From: Spirochaetales bacterium
Lineage (GTDB): Bacteria; Spirochaetota; Spirochaetia; DSM-27196; SLST01
Assembly: GCA_007127335.1 (NCBI GenBank)
Contig: SKZO01000398.1
Span: 1 to 32,240 of the forward strand
Reading direction: 5' to 3'
Length of the DNA: 32,240 nt
Made by a program: the position numbers and the translations under genes. This document shows, piece by piece, positions 5,406 through 29,517 of this stretch (positions are counted from its first letter, which is position 1; the number at the start of each line of letters is the position of its first letter). A model generated the notes under the pieces. The model ran no database searches. It worked only from the letters and a program-made list of their open reading frames with translations, and had not been told where the DNA came from.

Positions 5406-6137
5406 ATGAAGAACCAGGTAGTGATCGTCACGGGGGCGGGCAGGGGCATAGGCGCGTGCGTGGCGGACTTTTTCGCACGCGATGGAGCACGGGTCGTGAT
5501 CGCGGAACGCGACGAGGCAGCAGGCCACCGGACGGAGGCCGGGATCCGCGACGGGGGTGGACAGGCGCTGTTCGTCCGGACCGACGTCGGCCTGCCGGAG
5601 GAGATCGAACGGCTCTACCTTCGGGTGCGGGAGGTCTACGGCGGCGTGGACGTCCTGGTCAACAATGCCGGGTTCGGACGAACCGGGTCGCTCCACGAGC
5701 TGACGGTCGATGATTGGGACGCGGTGATGAACACGAACCTGCGCGGCGCCTTTCTCTGCGCACGTGAGGCCGCGCTATCGATGCGCGAGCGCGGGGGCGG
5801 GGCGATCATCAATGTCGCCTCCATTCGGGCGCGGACGCCGGACCCCCTTTCGATTCCCTACGCCGCGAGCAAGGCGGGTGTCATCGGCCTCACCCGGGCC
5901 CTCGCTACAGCACTCGCGCCGGACGGGATCCGCGTGAACAGCGTCAGCCCCGGATGGATCGAGACCGGCGAGGGTACGGCGACGGCAGGACGCGTACGCC
6001 ACGAGGCGGGGGTCGCCGGGGCACCGCAGGACATCGCAAAGGCGTGCCGGTATCTCGCGGACCCGGAGAACCGGTTCATCACCGGCGCCGATCTCGTGGT
6101 CGACGGCGGAATCACTCGCCGGCTCGTCTTTGATTGA
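5406..6137 (+). CDS. Short-chain dehydrogenase/reductase (SDR), NAD(P)-dependent
   Basis: This cytoplasmic oxidoreductase has the classical SDR fold, 243 residues. The cofactor motif TGAGRGIG is near residues 9-16, the structural NNAG follows, and the catalytic Ser (NVAS) lies 13 residues before Tyr in YAASK. The C-terminus TGADLVVDGG is typical of FabG-like SDRs, so an acyl/sugar/polyol ketoreductase is plausible; the substrate cannot be read. An acidic residue after the second strand (AERDE) suggests NAD preference. The start is placed at ATG 5406 with TAGGA about seven bases upstream. ATG 5397 is in frame but would put the SD against the start codon. A much longer frame runs back to 5058 through the terminator and is not real. 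The gene overlaps or abuts the next one. Confidence 0.88.
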   Translation: MKNQVVIVTGAGRGIGACVADFFARDGARVVIAERDEAAGHRTEAGIRDGGGQALFVRTDVGLPEEIERLYLRVREVYGGVDVLVNNAGFGRTGSLHELTVDDWDAVMNTNLRGAFLCAREAALSMRERGGGAIINVASIRARTPDPLSIPYAASKAGVIGLTRALATALAPDGIRVNSVSPGWIETGEGTATAGRVRHEAGVAGAPQDIAKACRYLADPENRFITGADLVVDGGITRRLVFD

Positions 6138-20216: not shown

Positions 20217-20924
20217 CTACGGATTCTGGGCGATGAGCAGGCTCCGAGGATCAAGCATCAGGTGCAGATCTTCGGTCACGTACTGATCGTGATCCTTGCA
20301 GAGGTTCAGCTTGACGCAATCGGCCTCCGCGTGCAGCGTGATCAGTACGGAGATTGAGTCGATATAGGAACTCAGCAGGATCGGAACACCGTTTTCGTCG
20401 GTCCGTGGATCATCGCGATGGACGCTCGCACTGAACCAGAACGCGAGCCCGTGCTCCTCCGCGAAGCGCCGGATAGCGGCGATGGTCTCCGGTTGGCCAT
20501 GTTCGAAATCGTATCCGTCCACGACGATGAGATCAGCGGCGAACTTGCCGTCGGTCATCATCGTCTGAAGGCTCTTGATGAACTGGGCGACATCCACCTC
20601 GCTCTGCACGAAGTTCATGATTACCCGATGCTTGACCAGCTCGTCGTGAACGTCCATGGCATCATCGAGCTCACGTCGCGCGGCGATCTCGGCAAATATG
20701 TCCTCGTACCAGCTGATGATGTGATCGGTCCGTTCAGCGAAACTCGCGTGGATCACGTGCTTGTTCTGCAGCAGCTGATCGGTGGCTATATGGACGAGGC
20801 AAGCCGTCTTCCCCGTGCCTTTGCGACCAGCGATCACACCGATATGTCCTCTGCTAATCTCCCCGTGAATGCTCTTCTCGAGTATTCGCAGAGGACTCCT
20901 CTTGATCAGTTCGTTCTTAACCAT
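20217..20924 (-). CDS. RecA/KaiC-like P-loop ATPase of unknown role, co-transcribed with EF-G
   Basis: I do not recognise a named function. The 235-residue soluble protein has a Walker A GRKGTGKT (33-40) preceded by a beta strand, and a Walker B LIVVDG (D136), within a RecA/DnaB/KaiC-like single-domain core. The layout (short N-terminal helix, P-loop, a strand carrying VIHASFAER, Walker B, then a strand FWFSASVHRDD) resembles DnaB/RadA-type ATPases without DNA-binding additions. AGGAGA lies about nine bases before ATG 20924. It starts 13 bp after the EF-G stop on the same strand, with no terminator or promoter between, so it is the second gene of the EF-G operon. A role in ribosome or GTPase-related stress is only a guess from position. 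Confidence 0.72.
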   Translation of the reverse strand: MVKNELIKRSPLRILEKSIHGEISRGHIGVIAGRKGTGKTACLVHIATDQLLQNKHVIHASFAERTDHIISWYEDIFAEIAARRELDDAMDVHDELVKHRVIMNFVQSEVDVAQFIKSLQTMMTDGKFAADLIVVDGYDFEHGQPETIAAIRRFAEEHGLAFWFSASVHRDDPRTDENGVPILLSSYIDSISVLITLHAEADCVKLNLCKDHDQYVTEDLHLMLDPRSLLIAQNP

Positions 20925-20937
20925 CTGGATCTCTCTC

Positions 20938-23031
20938 CTACGCCCGGATCGCTTCGCCTTTGCGCTCTTCGCGGTACCGTTCCACCAGCTCTTCGGCGAT
21001 GCTCCTGGGCACGCGGCCGTACTTCAGGAACTCCATGCTGTACTCGGCTTTGCCCTGCGTCAAGCTGCGAAGCACGGTCGAGTAGCCGAACATCTCCGAA
21101 AGCGGTACCTCAGCTTCAACAACACTGAACGCTCCTGTTTCCGTCGAGCTCAGGATGATCCCCCGCCGCTGGTTGATGCTTGCGAACACGTTCCCCTGGA
21201 ACTCGGTTGGACCCTCCACTGTCACCTTCATGATCGGTTCGAGGATCTGGGGCTTCGCCCGGTTGTACGCCTCCCGAAAGGCGCCAAGGCCCGCAGCCTG
21301 GAACGCCATATCCGAGGAATCGACCGGGTGTGTGCTCCCGTCGTTGATTACCGCGCGCACGCCGACGATAGGGAACCCGATCAGCCGCCCCTTCTCCATC
21401 GCGAGCCGGAATCCTTTGTCCACGCTCGTGATGAACTCATTCGGAATCGCACCGCCACGAATCTCATCGACAAACTCGTAGTCCTCCTCCACGAGCGGCT
21501 CGAGGTACCCGGCAACACGACCGAACTGCCCCGACCCGCCGGTCTGCTTCTTGTGGGTGTAGTTGAAGTCAGACCGCTGGGTGATCGTCTCGCGGTATGC
21601 GACCTGGGGAGCGCCGGTCTCAACCTCCGCCTTGTACTCGCGGCGCATGCGCTCGACGTAGACATCGAGATGGAGCTCACCCATCCCCTGGATGATGGTC
21701 TCCTGGCTCTCAGGGTCGACGTACGTTCGAAAGGTAGGGTCCTCCTTGCTGAACCGGTTGAGCGCCTTGGCCAGATTGTCGGACGACGCCTTGTCCTTCG
21801 TGCGAATGGCCAGGCTGATGACCGGGTTCGGGACGAACATGCTCGTCATGGAGTAGTCGAGCGAGGGATCGCAGAACGTATCGCCGGACGCACAGTCGAT
21901 TCCGAACAGTGCAACGATGTCCCCGGCGGGCGCCTCGGAGATGTCCTCCATGTGATTGGCGTGCATTCGTATCAACCGCCCGATCTTGAACTTCCGGCGA
22001 CTGCGGGTGTTGAACAGCTCATCACCCTTCCTGACGGTACCCTGGTAGATCCGGATATAGGTCAACTGGCCGTAGCTCGTGTCTTCGAGCTTGAATGCGA
22101 GGGCAACGGTCTTCGCGTCAGGACCGGACGACAGCTCTACCGGTTCTTCGGCCGCCTCGAGATCAAGCGCGGTATTCGTGACCTGCGCCGGAGCCGGAAG
22201 ATACCGGGTCACGGCGTCGAGCAGCGTCTGCACACCCTTGTTCTTGTACGCACTCCCGACGAATACCGGCGTGAGCTCGCGCCGCAGCACCCCGGCGCGC
22301 ACCGCCTCGTGAATCTGATCGTGCGTCACCTCGCCTTCGAGGAAGGCCTCGGCGAGCTCGTCGCTGAACATGCTCGCTGCGTCAATGAGTTGCTCACGTG
22401 CCTGTTCGGCCTCATCAATCATGTGCGCCGGCACTTCCTCGTACCGCAACTGCTCGCCGGCCGCGCCGTCGAAGTAGATCGCCTGCATCGTCACGAGATC
22501 AACAAGGCCCTCGAACTTCTCCTCCAGACCGATCGGCAGCTGCATCATCACGGCATTGTGCCCGAGCTTGGCGCGCAGCTGCTCACACACCTTGCGCGGG
22601 CCGGCGCCGGTGCGATCGGCTTTGTTGACGAAGGCGAGGAACGGCACATTGTACCGGCTCAGCTGGCGATCCACCGTGATGCTCTGGCTCTGAACGCCAC
22701 CTACGGCGCACAGCACGAGCACCGCCCCGTCGAGCACACGAAGGCTGCGCTCCACCTCGATCGTGAAGTCGACGTGGCCGGGCGTGTCAATGATGTTGAT
22801 AGGATGATGCTTCCAGGTCACATTGGTGGAGGCGCTGGCGATGGTGATTCCGCGCTCGCGTTCGAGCTCCATGGAGTCCATGGTCGCGCCGACTCCGTCG
22901 CGTCCACGCACCTCGTGGATCGCATGGATCTTCTCGCAGTAGAAGAGAATCCGTTCGGTCAGCGTCGTCTTGCCCGAATCTATGTGAGCGCTGATCCCGA
23001 TGTTCCGCATTTTCTCGACGTCTATAGCCAT
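20938..23031 (-). CDS. fusA: Elongation factor G, spirochaete/mitochondrial-EFG1-like type
   Basis: This translational GTPase catalyses ribosomal translocation. Its 697 residues carry G1 AHIDSGKT (15-22), G2 RGITI (60-64), G3 DTPGH (82-86), G4 NKAD (136-139), domain II, and domain IV with GGSGQFGRV and the tip NQRRGIIL, then domain V. Canonical eubacterial EF-G reads HIDAGKTTTTER. Here [12 protein letters not shown] and [24 protein letters not shown] match the mtEFG1/spdEFG1 branch instead. ATG 23031 is chosen (AAGGA five bases upstream; typical [12 protein letters not shown] start); the frame runs six codons further without support. Organisms with this type often have a second EF-G for ribosome recycling, so duty may be split. 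It is transcribed from a promoter inside the upstream gene's end with a roughly 105-base leader. Confidence 0.95.
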
Positions 23032-23137
23032 ACTGTTCCTTCCGTTCACCAGTTCGTCATGAGTCGCTGCACTGATCTATAGGGATGTGACTCGATGAGT
23101 CTTCGGGTGACCATCCAGGTCGTCATTCGCGACCGGG
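23032..23137 (-). promoter_or_regulatory. Structured 5' leader of the EF-G operon
   Basis: From the predicted start near 23137 to ATG 23031 the transcript has about 105 untranslated bases. They can form GGTCG-N7-CGACC, or alternatively GACC-N5-GGTC using the same strand, then GACTC-ATC-GAGTC. GACTCAT occurs twice as a direct repeat. Mutually exclusive stems suggest possible translational or attenuation control, but no known motif is recognised. Confidence 0.3.
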
Positions 23138-24198: not shown

Positions 24199-25167
24199 AT
24201 GATGCGACTCGTGCGAGCGGTACGAACCGGAGTCGCCGCCGGGCTTCGAACCGCGGTGTGGCTGCTGCTCATCATGTTGCCGGTATCCTTCGTCGTCCTG
24301 CTCCTGCGGTGGACAGGAGTACTCGAAGCAGTCAGCGATCTCCTCTCGCCGGTATTCCGGTCGATCGGTCTGCCGGGCGCATCAGCTCTCGTCTTCCTCT
24401 CGTCGCTCTTCGTGAATCTGTACTCGGGTATCGCGGTGATGGGCGAGCTCGCACTCTCGATGCGCGAAGTGACGATAATCGCGGTGATGTGCCTGATCGC
24501 ACACAACTTCCTGGTCGAGATCGCCGTGCTCGGATCTACCGGAAGCAGTCCGCTACGCATGGTGGTTCTGCGCCTGGCGGCGGCGCTCGTGGCGGGGTTC
24601 GGCTTGAGCCTGATGCTGCCGGCCGATCTCGCCGCGCTCGACACCGGGATCGGCGCACATATGCGGGAGGTGGAGCCGGACCGCTTCGCTGGAGCGCTCG
24701 TCGCCTGGGGACGGGAGAGTCTGATGCTGATCGGCCGGATCTCGCTCATACTCCTCGCCCTGATGACGGGTGAAGCGCTGCTGCAGGAGATGGGCGTGAT
24801 TCGCTGGATAGGACGGCGACTCGGGCCGGTCATGCGGCTGTTCGGACTTCCGGAGGAGACCGCATTCCTGTGGGTGGTCTCGAACACGCTCGGTCTGGCG
24901 TACGGGGCCGGTGTACTGCGTCGAGAGGTCTCGCAGGGCCGCCTCTCGACGGTCCACAGTGATCTGCTGAACCACCACATCGCCGTGTCCCACTCGCTCC
25001 TCGAAGACACGCTTCTCTTCGTCGTTCTGGGAGTCCCGGCGCTGTGGATTACGGTCCCGCGTCTTCTCCTGGCCCTCTTCGCCGTCTGGGCCCGGCGAGC
25101 GGAACTCGCCATACGCGCGCGGCGCACGAGCCACGAGCGCGCCTACCGTTCGCGAAGTCTCCCGTAA
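24199..25167 (+). CDS. Gate-domain (nucleoside-recognition-like) membrane protein
   Basis: This polytopic inner-membrane protein has 322 residues with about eight hydrophobic segments arranged as two similar halves. Each half has a Gate-like pattern: a pair of helices, then a helix carrying FLSSLFVNLYSGIAVMGEL in the first half and LWVVSNTLGLAYGAGVLRREV in the second. Such proteins (relatives of SpmA/SpmB and the FeoB/CNT Gate domain) are annotated as nucleoside-recognition proteins, but the transported substrate is generally unknown. An MMRLVRAVRTG amphipathic start and an Arg-rich tail are cytoplasmic. The start is one of two adjacent ATGs, without SD. Its 3' end overlaps the convergent unknown gene by 25 bp. 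Confidence 0.8.
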   Translation: MMRLVRAVRTGVAAGLRTAVWLLLIMLPVSFVVLLLRWTGVLEAVSDLLSPVFRSIGLPGASALVFLSSLFVNLYSGIAVMGELALSMREVTIIAVMCLIAHNFLVEIAVLGSTGSSPLRMVVLRLAAALVAGFGLSLMLPADLAALDTGIGAHMREVEPDRFAGALVAWGRESLMLIGRISLILLALMTGEALLQEMGVIRWIGRRLGPVMRLFGLPEETAFLWVVSNTLGLAYGAGVLRREVSQGRLSTVHSDLLNHHIAVSHSLLEDTLLFVVLGVPALWITVPRLLLALFAVWARRAELAIRARRTSHERAYRSRSLP

Positions 25168-25682
25168 CTGCCCACCGTCAGAATCCCCGGATCGCCGTGG
25201 AACTGCTCGTGACGCCCGTCGCGTACCCGGACATGCCCCACAACGGAGGCATCCACCTCCATGTCCACTCCCTCGCAGGTCCATCTGCTGCCCCAGACGG
25301 CGAAGTCGCCGCCGCCGTAGGGCGCTGGCCGTGGTATCGAGTCGGCGGACGACAGAAAGGTCATCCGCGCGAGAGCCACCGGCCCGGTCGCGGCGATGAG
25401 ACGGCCTCGCACGATGCGATCGCCGCTCCCGGCGTCGGAGCCTATGGTTTCGATCCGCAGCTGCGATGGAGAGGCGCGGATCGCCGTGCTCTCAGGAAAC
25501 CGGTCCGCCATGAATCGGGCGGCACGGGATGAACAGTGGTAGACGGTCACCGGGCGGTGGGTCCCATCACGGATGACGATGAAGCAGGCGAAGCTCCCGT
25601 GCGTGACGGAATGGATAACGCACCACTCGTAGCGTCCGGGAAGGTGCGCGAACGGCGCGTAGAACTCGATTGACTCACTCAT
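25143..25682 (-). CDS. Unknown protein, last gene of the TPP-riboswitch thiamine operon
   Basis: I do not recognise this 179-residue protein. It lacks a signal peptide and membrane helices and looks like a soluble, beta-rich domain: strands around CVIHSVTHGSFACFIVIRDG, VTVYHCSS, IVRGRLIAATGPVALARMTF and GGDFAVWGSRWTCEG, ending GHVRVRDGRHEQF. Cysteines at about 21, 33, 50 and 137, and His at 24 and 28, are possible ligands but form no standard motif. It begins 8 bp inside the thiQ 3' end, so it is translationally coupled to the transporter and under the same riboswitch. That makes a thiamine-related role (intracellular binding, hydrolysis or salvage) a reasonable inference without direct support. 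It overlaps the convergent Gate gene by 25 bp. Confidence 0.7.
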   Translation of the reverse strand: MSESIEFYAPFAHLPGRYEWCVIHSVTHGSFACFIVIRDGTHRPVTVYHCSSRAARFMADRFPESTAIRASPSQLRIETIGSDAGSGDRIVRGRLIAATGPVALARMTFLSSADSIPRPAPYGGGDFAVWGSRWTCEGVDMEVDASVVGHVRVRDGRHEQFHGDPGILTVGSYGRLRER

Positions 25683-26637
25683 TCGGCAGCTCCGAGCCCG
25701 CAGACCAAACTGCGATCAGCTCCGCTCCGGGTTCGTAGCGGCGGGAGTCGTAGGCAAGCAGGCTCCCCAACGCGGAATCGAGCTCGTACAGCCATGCGAA
25801 CCCCAGAAACTGCCGGCTCTGCACCGTCGCCTCCACGGAGCTCTCAGCGAGCACCTCGCCCGCACCCGGACCCACCGGGCTCAGACTGACCTGCTCCGGG
25901 CGGAGAATGAGCGTCCGTCCCTCATGAGGCACTACGCTCATCTCACCCACGAACCCGGCCACGAACTCGTCGGCTGGACGACGGTAGAGCTCGACCGGGC
26001 TCGCATATTGCACGAGGCGTCCCTGGCGCAGGACGGCTACACGGTCCGAGATCGACAGCGCCTCCTGCCGGCTGTGGGTCACGAAGAGCACCGTGATTCC
26101 GAGCTCCCGTTGCAGTCGCACGATTTCGCGTCGGAGATCCCGGCGCAGTACCTCGTCAATGGAGCTGAATGGCTCATCGAGCAGCAGGAGCACCGGATCG
26201 ACGGCAAGGGCGCGGGCGATCGCGACGCGCTGCCGCTCGCCTCCGGAAAGGGTATCCACTCGTCTCCTCCCGTACCCGGGCAGGTCCATCAGCTCGAGCA
26301 ACTCATCGACCCGTCTGCGCATGCGTGCGGGCTCAACGCGGCGGATTCGAAGTCCGTACCCGACGTTCTGCGCAACCGACATGTGCGGAAAGAGCGTATA
26401 GTCCTGAAAGACATAGCCGATGTGCCGACCGGCCGGCGGAAGCCTCGTCACGTCCTCACCGTTGATCACGATCCGCCCGGCATCAATCGACTCGAATCCG
26501 GCGATGAGCCGCAGCGTCGTCGTCTTGCCGCTGCCGCTCGGCCCAAGGACGGAGACGAGCTCGCCGGCCTCAACGGCGAGGTCGAGCTCCATGTCGAACT
26601 CCGGGTATGCCTTTCGCAGCCGTTCAAGCCGAATCAC
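25675..26637 (-). CDS. thiQ: Thiamine ABC transporter ATPase
   Basis: This ATP-binding subunit energises thiamine/TPP import. Its 320 residues carry Walker A GPSGSGKT (32-39), Q-loop Q78, signature LSGGERQ (from 130), Walker B LLLLDE (E155) and switch H188. A C-terminal extension of about 90 residues (RTLILRPEQVSLSP, then QSRQFLGFAWLYEL) is a TOBE-like domain. E. coli ThiQ (about 232 aa) lacks it, so this one resembles FbpC/PotA-type ATPases in length. GTG 26637 is chosen: AGGAG seven bases upstream, overlapping the thiP stop by 14 bp; an upstream extension to 26691 lies in the thiP frame region and adds only a Ser-rich stretch. Assignment rests on the operon. Confidence 0.88.
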   Translation of the reverse strand: MIRLERLRKAYPEFDMELDLAVEAGELVSVLGPSGSGKTTTLRLIAGFESIDAGRIVINGEDVTRLPPAGRHIGYVFQDYTLFPHMSVAQNVGYGLRIRRVEPARMRRRVDELLELMDLPGYGRRRVDTLSGGERQRVAIARALAVDPVLLLLDEPFSSIDEVLRRDLRREIVRLQRELGITVLFVTHSRQEALSISDRVAVLRQGRLVQYASPVELYRRPADEFVAGFVGEMSVVPHEGRTLILRPEQVSLSPVGPGAGEVLAESSVEATVQSRQFLGFAWLYELDSALGSLLAYDSRRYEPGAELIAVWSAGSELPNE

Positions 26638-28261
26638 GCCGCGGCTCCTGTGCGTGCATTGAGGTGGCGTCGATGACGAGGAAGAGGCCAAGGCAGATCA
26701 GTACATAGATGACGGCGAGCGCAAGCGCGAGGTCAAAGCTGCGGAAGCCGATGAGCCGGTAGATTGCGACGGGGAAGGTCGCGATGCGGCCGCGGCCGGC
26801 GGCAAGCACGACGGTGAGGTCTGCGAATGGAAGCGCAAGCGCATAGGCATACCCGTTCAGGAGGGTCCGGCGCAGGAGCGGCACCTCCACGTCCCGAAGC
26901 ACGGCCCATCGGCTCGCGCCAAGGATCTCCGCCGACCGAACCAGGCCGTCGCCAAGCTCGTCAACACCGGTCCGGAGTATCCGGAACACGAGGGGGAAGC
27001 CGATGAAGAACTGCCCAAGCACGACGAGCACGGCCGGCGGGACCGTAGCCCCCCACACGAAGCGCAGCCCCAGGCTCACGGTGACGAAGGACATTGCAAT
27101 CGGCATCTGCAGGAAACTCTCGAATCCGGGCCGACTTCTTCCCCGCAGCGAGAGCGCGAGCGCGGCGGCGAGCAGGAATATGAGCGTTCCCGAACTGACG
27201 GCGATCGCGACACTCCGCCAGATGACGCCGGGAATCGAGCTCCGGAGTATTCCCTCGACGTTCCGGTCCGCCGCACCGGGAATCAGCAGTTGCCGGAACC
27301 CTTCGAGCGAGAAGGCACCGTTGGCGTTCGTGAGAGCCCGGGCGAACATCGTGAGGACGGGGCCCAGGACAAACGCGATCGCGACGACCGCATAGGCCGT
27401 CATGAAGATGCGTCCGGCGGTCGAGGCGGTGGCCAGCGGCGGAAGTCCACGCTCGCCTCCGGAGCGCGACACGCGGGCCGCGACAATCGCTCGCGAGGCG
27501 AGCGCGAGGAAGCCGACCGAGAGCACAAGCTGCAGAGTCGAGTAGACGGCCGCGGCGATGAGGTCCAGGTTCACATACGTTTCCTGGTAGATCGCGACCT
27601 CGAGCGTGGAGAATCGTACCCCGCCAAACACGAGGATGATCCCGAAGCTGAGAAAACAGTAGATGAAGATAAGCACGAAGGCGCTTACGATCGCAGGCGC
27701 GAGAAGCGGAAGCGTGACACGGAGGAACAACCCGAGCGGGCGCTCGCCCAGGCTCTCAGCCGCCTCCGCGAACCGGCGATCGATGGAGCGCCAGGCCGTG
27801 GAGATGATCCTGATCGCCAGCGAAAAGTTATAGAAGACATGCGCGAGCACTATGCCGCGGAAGTTGTAGACGAGATTGAAGTCGGTACCCAGGATCGAAT
27901 TGAGCAGGCCGCTCTTCCCATAGAAGCTGATCATGCAGACGACCACGATGATGCTCGGCAGCACGAAGGGGACCAGCGACAACGAATAGGCAAGCCGCTT
28001 ACCCGGAAAGGAGTAGTGCGATACCATGTAGGCAAGAGGCATCGCGGCGGCCACCGCAATCGCCGCGGAGAGCGCGGCCTGGCCGGTGGTAAAACCGACG
28101 ACGCGCATCGTGCGGGGCGCGGTGAGCACGCCTCGGGCCCGATCGAGCACTGCGGCCGCGGGGACGCCGCGCATCGCCTCTACGTACACGCCTCCAATGG
28201 GAACGAGGAAGAAGAGCGCGAAATACGCGACGACCCCCGCGTACAGGAGCGATCGGCTCAC
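26624..28261 (-). CDS. thiP: Thiamine ABC transporter permease (fused two-domain)
   Basis: This inner-membrane permease has 545 residues with about 12 helices in two homologous halves. Each half has the EAA loop that contacts ThiQ: EAAESLGERPLGLFLRVTLPLL in shortened form (AESLGERPLG) in the first half, and SAEILGASRWAVLRDVEVPLL (EILGASRWAV) in the second. This fused design is that of ThiP/FbpB-type permeases. Start is GTG 28261 in the GTGA overlap with the thiB stop, with GGAAG about eight bases upstream; the frame is open 10 codons further (GTG 28291) inside thiB. Substrate assigned from the riboswitch and ThiB. Confidence 0.9.
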   Translation of the reverse strand: MSRSLLYAGVVAYFALFFLVPIGGVYVEAMRGVPAAAVLDRARGVLTAPRTMRVVGFTTGQAALSAAIAVAAAMPLAYMVSHYSFPGKRLAYSLSLVPFVLPSIIVVVCMISFYGKSGLLNSILGTDFNLVYNFRGIVLAHVFYNFSLAIRIISTAWRSIDRRFAEAAESLGERPLGLFLRVTLPLLAPAIVSAFVLIFIYCFLSFGIILVFGGVRFSTLEVAIYQETYVNLDLIAAAVYSTLQLVLSVGFLALASRAIVAARVSRSGGERGLPPLATASTAGRIFMTAYAVVAIAFVLGPVLTMFARALTNANGAFSLEGFRQLLIPGAADRNVEGILRSSIPGVIWRSVAIAVSSGTLIFLLAAALALSLRGRSRPGFESFLQMPIAMSFVTVSLGLRFVWGATVPPAVLVVLGQFFIGFPLVFRILRTGVDELGDGLVRSAEILGASRWAVLRDVEVPLLRRTLLNGYAYALALPFADLTVVLAAGRGRIATFPVAIYRLIGFRSFDLALALAVIYVLICLGLFLVIDATSMHAQEPRRDSA

Positions 28262-29343
28262 TGCATCACTTCCCGCCAGTCGGAGAGCCACCGGTCAAAG
28301 TTCTCGTCCACCTCGTCGACCGGCAGGAAGATCGAGGTGCCGGCGGTCTCCACGAGGTTGAACGCCTCCGGGAGTTCGACGTCGGCCCGCACCGGGTACA
28401 TGAACTGGTTCAGCGGAATCTCACGCTGGAAGTCGACGCTCAGCAGAAAGTCGATGAGCCGACGCGCATTCTCGACGTTCGCGGCTCCGGAAAGCACGCC
28501 CGCGACCTCAATCTGTGCGTAGCCGTGGTCTTCGAGGATCAGATTCCGGTAGCGGTCGGTATCCTCGAAGGCGATGTGGTAAGGGGGGCTGCTTTCGTAG
28601 CTCAGCACGATGGGCGCCTCACCCTGCGTATAGAGTCCGTACCCCTCGGACCAGCCGGAGGTGATGGTGAGGATATTCGGAGAGAGCCGACGCCAGTAGT
28701 CCAGGTAGCCGTCCTCGCCGTGCACGGCCACCGTCAGCAGGAGGAAGTTCCTCCCCGGCGACGACGTTGCGGGATTCATCAGGATGATCGATTCCGACAG
28801 CCGCGGGTCGAGCAGCTCTTCCCACGTCGTCGGCGGGTCGGGCAGCCGTTCGCTGTCGTAGTTGAGCAGCACATGCCCCCAGTCGAAGGGCGTGAGCCGG
28901 AACTCCGGGTCGATGACCAGGTGGTCACGGATCGCGTCGGCCTCTCCCGGGCGATACGCCTGGAAGAGACCGGCCTCCAGCGCCCGGCCTATGTAGGTGT
29001 TATCGAGACCGATCGCCGCATCCGCCCGCGGCGCGGCACGCTCGAGCCAGAGCTGATTGTACAGCCCGCCGGTATCCTGGTGACGTTCGAGCGTCGGTGT
29101 CACCCCGTACGCTTCCTCGAAGTGGGTGGTGATCAGTACTTCCAGCGACTGCGGAAACGCGTCGTAGGTGTAGATCGTGAGCGCTCCCGGGTCGTCGGCC
29201 GCCTCCCCGGCCGCCTCATCACGGCCGCAGGCGACGAGCGCCGCAAGCAGGACAAACGCGGCAAGCAGCGCAGACATGGTCCGCAGCAACGATCGCAGGC
29301 GGCGAAACGGCTCGGGTCCGGCAGATGGCAAAGGTTGAAACAT
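28258..29343 (-). CDS. thiB: Thiamine-binding lipoprotein of the ABC transporter
   Basis: This solute-binding protein for thiamine/TPP has 361 residues. The N-terminus is a lipoprotein signal with core LLAAFVLLAA and lipobox LVAC (C39), so it would be lipid-anchored rather than free periplasmic as in E. coli. The mature part follows E. coli ThiB closely: LTIYTYDAF, ADAAIGLDNTYIG, PFDWGHVLLNYD, NPATSSPGRNFLLL, TSGWSEGYGLYTQGE and LSYESSPPYHI, the last two containing the aromatic residues that hold the ligand. ATG 29343 has GGGGGAGG six bases upstream; an apparent extension to 29478 is riboswitch sequence, not coding. Confidence 0.94.
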   Translation of the reverse strand: MFQPLPSAGPEPFRRLRSLLRTMSALLAAFVLLAALVACGRDEAAGEAADDPGALTIYTYDAFPQSLEVLITTHFEEAYGVTPTLERHQDTGGLYNQLWLERAAPRADAAIGLDNTYIGRALEAGLFQAYRPGEADAIRDHLVIDPEFRLTPFDWGHVLLNYDSERLPDPPTTWEELLDPRLSESIILMNPATSSPGRNFLLLTVAVHGEDGYLDYWRRLSPNILTITSGWSEGYGLYTQGEAPIVLSYESSPPYHIAFEDTDRYRNLILEDHGYAQIEVAGVLSGAANVENARRLIDFLLSVDFQREIPLNQFMYPVRADVELPEAFNLVETAGTSIFLPVDEVDENFDRWLSDWREVMQ

Positions 29344-29404
29344 GGGAAACCTCCCCCTGAAGATTTCGGGGCGGCGTCGAAGAAAGGCTTTGCGGAATGA
29401 AGAA

Positions 29405-29484
29405 GGCACGGTTCCCTCCGCCGGCATTACCCGGATCAGGTCAGCGGGTGTGATCTCAGCCTTTCCTGCGAAAAGCACCCCGTA
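29405..29484 (-). promoter_or_regulatory. TPP riboswitch (THI element)
   Basis: The 80-base minus-strand leader matches the TPP aptamer. P1 pairs GTACGG with CCGTGC (outer ends 29484 and 29405). Conserved blocks appear in order: GGGGTGC (29474-29480), GCTGAGA with CTGAGA at 29453-29458, ACCTGAT with CCTGAT at 29434-29439, GGTAATGCCGGCG, and GGGAA (29411-29415). It precedes thiB by 61 bases. The region after it has no good T-run terminator. CCCC of GCCCCG can pair with GGGG of the SD GGGGGAGG, suggesting translational control. Confidence 0.95.
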
Positions 29485-29488
29485 CGCT

Positions 29489-29517
29489 AAAACTATCCAC
29501 GGCGCCCGCGGGCGTCA
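29489..29517 (-). promoter_or_regulatory. Promoter of the thiamine operon
   Basis: On the minus strand TTGACG (29512-29517), 17 bases and TAGTTT (29489-29494) would start transcription near 29483, the first bases of riboswitch P1. The -35 is good and the -10 weak. It lies inside the 3' end of the CMD-family gene. Confidence 0.5.

Follow-up and report, generated by a model that had tools for sequence, protein, structure and literature searches.

TPP-riboswitch operons have pointed reliably to thiamine genes, and those of their members that have no assigned function are candidates for missing steps. The window (i.e., the whole stretch of 32,240 nucleotides analyzed here) carries one such operon, and its last gene, which we call X, raises the question of whether its product acts on a thiamine-related compound or whether the gene is a passenger of unrelated function. 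Both options had been raised in a preliminary description of this DNA, which considered a salvage, binding or phosphatase-like role or, alternatively, a passenger.

Organization of the operon

The riboswitch, the three transporter genes and X (Table 1) are all read in one direction and the genes overlap, an arrangement from which X would be expected to be co-transcribed with thiB, thiP and thiQ and repressed by TPP. The aptamer is the sole TPP site found in this genome, and no promoter-like site was found in the region. The start of the mechanically called thiB reading frame, at 29478, falls inside the riboswitch, and the longest thiQ frame extends to 26691. ThiB matches TIGR01254 above its cut-off; ThiP has the thiP models as its best matches, yet falls under their equivalog cut-offs; and ThiQ matches ABC_tran and TOBE along with generic ABC ATPases, thiQ among them.

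Table 1. Features of the thiamine-import operon and its convergent neighbor, in window coordinates.
Feature	Position	Strand	Remarks
TPP riboswitch aptamer (RF00059)	29396..29492	-	63.4 bits, E 2e-10, full-length
thiB, thiamine substrate-binding lipoprotein	28258..29343	-	start at 29343 inferred
thiP, thiamine ABC transporter permease	26624..28291	-	model matches
thiQ, ABC transporter ATPase with TOBE domain	25675..26637	-	GTG start inferred
Gene X, uncharacterized 179-aa predicted beta-barrel protein	25143..25682	-	last gene of operon
Gate (nucleoside-recognition) membrane protein gene	24199..25167	+	convergent neighbor, outside operon

Gene X opens with an ATG and encodes 179 residues followed by a stop. 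Its earlier placement, fourth after thiB, thiP and thiQ in an operon headed by a TPP riboswitch, is confirmed by the exact position of the frame, the score of the riboswitch and the existence of homologs. It had also been described as starting inside thiQ: The overlap is real, but only the last 8 nt of thiQ are shared, where the start of X meets the thiQ stop (junction sequence ATGAGTGA). At its other end, X is overlapped by 25 nt of the Gate gene. This gene is also convergent with the end of the operon in G000 (the window genome), G001, G002 and G003, whether X is present or absent.

The EF-G gene of the window (20938-23049, minus strand) is accompanied by an antisense shadow reading frame of 737 codons (20869-23082, plus strand), which is an effect of GC-rich coding sequence and cautions the calling of reading frames in this region.

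Conservation and classification of gene X

Because the GC-rich DNA of the window contains many long shadow reading frames, X might be spurious, a by-product of base composition and no gene at all. We give this explanation next to no credence, since it is refuted by conservation: There are 41 invariant columns in the alignment of nine X sequences (window copy included), the structure models are confident, and dN/dS between the window copy and that of G002, its nearest relative, is 0.20. The same comparison yields 0.17 for thiQ, 0.07 for thiP and 0.16 for the Gate gene, and the value for X points to purifying selection. Mean column identity across the nine sequences is 58%, and the proteins are 175-181 aa long. 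Gene X is thus genuine and conserved.

It is also unclassified. No match was obtained in Pfam, NCBIfam, PHROGs, PADLOC or PDB sequences, which upholds the original impression that X resembles no known thiamine enzyme and extends it to the other families searched. Among the thiamine enzyme and carrier models of Pfam and NCBIfam, the only match was a chance-level one to TPP_enzyme_N, by a single member (E 0.18), and no thiamine-binding motif was found in X. A search of the literature found no paper on such a gene. Cargo of phages or plasmids was considered as a source and rejected, since searches of plasmids, phages and viral contigs gave nothing that matched X.

Distribution and genomic context of homologs

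Besides the window copy, X was detected in G002, G030 and G044 (76%, 50% and 52% identical to it, respectively), and wider searches added homologs first in G419 and G425 and then in G444, G501 and G508, bringing the total to nine within the class. Three weak profile matches were taken as chance: One (G122) reads by eye as a dienelactone-hydrolase-like protein, another (G219) has its frame broken by a stop, and the third (G380) spans 28 residues at E 0.005. Beyond the phylum, the search consisted of one contig scan from a single query sequence, an approach that picks up only close relatives.

In four of the nine members (window, G002, G030 and G044), drawn from two families, X directly follows thiQ. 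The window, G002 and G030 all show the arrangement TPP riboswitch-thiB-thiP-thiQ-X, and the last of these represents another family within the order of the window organism; in G044, the contig ends soon after and the riboswitch is out of view, such that it is visible in three of the four operon-borne cases. Overlaps of thiQ and X measure 8 nt in the window and in G002 (where X has a GTG start) and 4 nt, as ATGA, in G030 and G044. ATGA overlaps are typical of translational coupling, and the junctions as a group look as coupling would lead one to expect. The preliminary description had suggested looking for homologs beside thiBPQ or TPP riboswitches elsewhere, and these four loci, spread over two families, provide them. 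It had further named two findings that would speak against its proposal, namely that homologs never occur near thiamine genes or that they belong to a well-known unrelated family: Four of nine follow thiQ and no family was matched, although the other five are solitary.

These five copies (G419, G425, G444, G501 and G508) stand away from thiamine genes, among neighbors that, by eye, are unrelated and not common to the loci (genes for an SNF2-type helicase, an exonuclease and a DEAD helicase, a J-domain protein and an RNA methyltransferase). No TPP riboswitch reached the curated threshold at any of the five, nor did the four loci scanned for a hidden one at E values up to 1 give a match. G419 has a separate TPP-riboswitch thiBPQ operon elsewhere, from which X is missing. 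Within the order, ThiP is matched at a strict threshold in 26 of 46 genomes; X occurs in only four, and most thiBPQ operons, and most thiP-bearing genomes, are without it.

Two of the loci merit separate mention. In G508, the solitary copy (L072, 8198-8728, plus strand) has a 3'-5' exonuclease-like gene on one side and a DEAD helicase gene on the other and is encoded on the strand opposite to theirs, which gives the appearance of an insertion into a yprB-yprA-like pair; this identification was made by eye only. In G044, contig C64 has a TPP riboswitch (L068, 3368-4195, minus strand) before genes for an apparent YkoF-type protein and an ECF transporter; as judged by eye only, this X carrier seems to have there a second system for taking up thiamine or HMP.

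Such a distribution would suit a passenger, i.e., a sporadic accessory gene that settled behind thiQ, uses the promoter of the operon and has a role unrelated to thiamine. The spread of X is patchy (nine of 395 genomes in the class, and two of 26 in the order of G501), its solitary copies keep unrelated company with no riboswitch nearby, and it is missing from most thiBPQ operons. The solitary copies by themselves are, however, compatible with a thiamine role.

Probable capture, co-inheritance and loss

In a tree of ThiP, the X-bearing operons of the window genome, G002 and G030 form one clade together with G003 (support 97/94), and G014 and G020, which belong to the genus of G030, carry a distant ThiP outside it. 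Because the G030 protein lies in this clade, apart from its congeners, the whole operon seems to have passed from one family to another in one piece, presumably by horizontal transfer. The tree of X groups the operon copies against the solitary ones with moderate support (83/88). Both trees would fit a single capture of X by the operon, followed by co-inheritance and at least one loss; and since the association traces to one capture, the four operon cases are not independent.

A loss appears to have occurred in G003, which is of the same genus as the window organism and has a ThiP 88% identical to that of the window: X has apparently gone while thiQ and thiP were kept. Beside thiQ, the initial 13 codons of X survive (L042, about 5600-5700), reading MSESVEFAAPFAH, after which the frame continues directly into antisense sequence of the Gate gene. 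This junction is either a clean scar left by deletion or an artifact of assembly. The remnant supports X having been ancestral in that operon and dispensable there.

Deletion of X from an operon that retains thiQ and thiP again favors the passenger explanation. Against it, the overlapping starts have been kept across two families whose X proteins have only about 50% of residues in common, the genes of the operon seem to have traveled together, and for a neutral passenger in terminal position one would expect more frequent loss.

Predicted structure and candidate folds

The profile search and structure prediction advocated at the outset returned no family and a confident predicted barrel. With four sequences and the window X as query, AlphaFold gave a pLDDT of 88.6, only two of five models being confident; when the G425 protein was the query and nine sequences were used, none of the five models fell below 89.9 (best, 92.5). 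The predicted protein is a single-domain closed beta-barrel, with one main helix in an otherwise almost entirely beta structure. The window protein has no signal peptide apparent by eye, and its highest 19-residue Kyte-Doolittle mean, 1.32, is under the usual level for a membrane helix; X is therefore probably cytoplasmic.

In a long strand at residues 132-151 (L047 numbering), Cys134, Gly136, Asp138 and Glu140 alternate and are invariant, and the residues between them vary. This alternation places the four on one face of the strand, which may line a pocket; more broadly, the conserved polar residues of X (His, Glu, Asp, Arg and Cys) suggest a pocket for a small molecule.

Nearest folds by Foldseek are weak overall (TM 0.36-0.50), with no close relative. 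For both models the top PDB match is a structure of the acetoacetate decarboxylase (ADC) superfamily (E about 1e-3, probability 0.98-1.0), which would make X a divergent member of that superfamily with Schiff-base chemistry. We consider this very unlikely. The superpositions have an rmsd of 8-11 A; three of the four operon copies (window, G002 and G030) are devoid of lysine and hence cannot have a catalytic one; and no lysine is invariant across the nine members. None of the nine matches the Pfam ADC family, and HHalign assigns a probability below 1% against ADC alignments, whereas, as a positive control, two ADC subsets with one sequence common to both find each other at 99.6%. Membership is rejected on the basis of profile comparison and the missing lysine.

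Next among the fold matches are 25-phosphosteroid lyase, AttH and kievitone hydratase, represented for the G425 model by 9fzn, 2ich and 7a0t, respectively (probability 0.97-1.0, TM about 0.4). These proteins are ligand-binding lyase or hydratase barrels. A search of viral folds gave one weak match, a Tupanvirus ORFan (TM 0.41).

Thiamine physiology of the host

Neither ThiC nor TMP-TENI (ThiE) had a match in the window genome, a draft assembly that is 93% complete, from which both are probably absent. Thiamine pyrophosphokinase is encoded there, as it is in 11 of the 12 genomes examined, and with both observations taken together the organism probably depends on imported thiamine. ThiC was absent from all 12 genomes tested, X carriers and non-carriers alike, and auxotrophy therefore cannot discriminate among the hypotheses.

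A gene that ends a thiamine-import operon, in an organism without recognizable de novo thiamine synthesis, might be thought to fill a missing activation step, as a thiamine kinase or a thiamine-phosphate kinase or phosphatase. We regard this as improbable: The main step from thiamine to TPP is filled by thiamine pyrophosphokinase, so that X need not be a kinase, and the best fold matches include no kinase or phosphatase that the predicted barrel resembles. For the same reasons, the phosphatase-like role initially entertained is unlikely. Of the other options then named, a passenger is almost as probable as a salvage or binding function.

Discussion

Our tentative first choice is that X encodes an accessory cytoplasmic barrel protein under TPP repression, either an enzyme or a binding protein, whose targets are possibly thiamine-related compounds. 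Under this model, an accessory gene of Spirochaetia would have been captured once downstream of thiQ, there to become the final cistron, coupled in translation, of a thiamine-import operon that TPP represses. Its product, a cytoplasmic single-domain closed beta-barrel with a putative small-molecule pocket, would act on or hold thiamine, or a thiamine-related compound, imported by ThiBPQ when TPP is low.

A thiamine role is supported by the recurrent riboswitch-thiBPQ-X order, by purifying selection and the co-travel of the genes, by the probable dependence on import, and by nearest folds that are ligand-binding or lyase barrels. It is also favored a priori, because in a published survey TPP regulons consist of thiamine biosynthesis and transport genes (PMC3766115). 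Counting against it are the five solitary copies without a riboswitch, the thiBPQ operon of G419 that lacks X, and the deletion in G003. An unrelated passenger, which the solitary copies, the patchy distribution and the same deletion favor, is nearly as plausible, and we regard the two as close. The more specific proposal that X founds a new family whose barrel binds or processes thiamine or a derivative, as an unrecognized salvage step in auxotrophic spirochetes, is appreciably more doubtful than either.

On any of these readings, X is a real gene that fits none of the families in the libraries searched; its fold is predicted with confidence, and its candidate pocket residues are strictly conserved. 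If it proves to be related to thiamine, salvage in auxotrophs would be extended; if not, X would exemplify the placement of an unrelated gene under TPP control.

In its RF00059 element, followed by ThiB, ThiP and ThiQ in that order, the operon is like other TPP-riboswitch thiBPQ operons; it is unlike most of those in the same order of bacteria in that a fourth gene, overlapping and assignable to no known family, is added. The ADC superfamily (PF06314; for example, 3c8w and MppR, 4jm3) provides the best, though weak, fold matches and has a large antiparallel beta barrel, as is predicted for X; but X is smaller, lacks lysine in most operon copies and shows no profile similarity. To AttH, kievitone hydratase and 25-phosphosteroid lyase, the G425 model bears a weak likeness in barrel fold; those proteins differ from X in their length of 320-360 aa and have no sequence similarity to it in PDB sequence searches.
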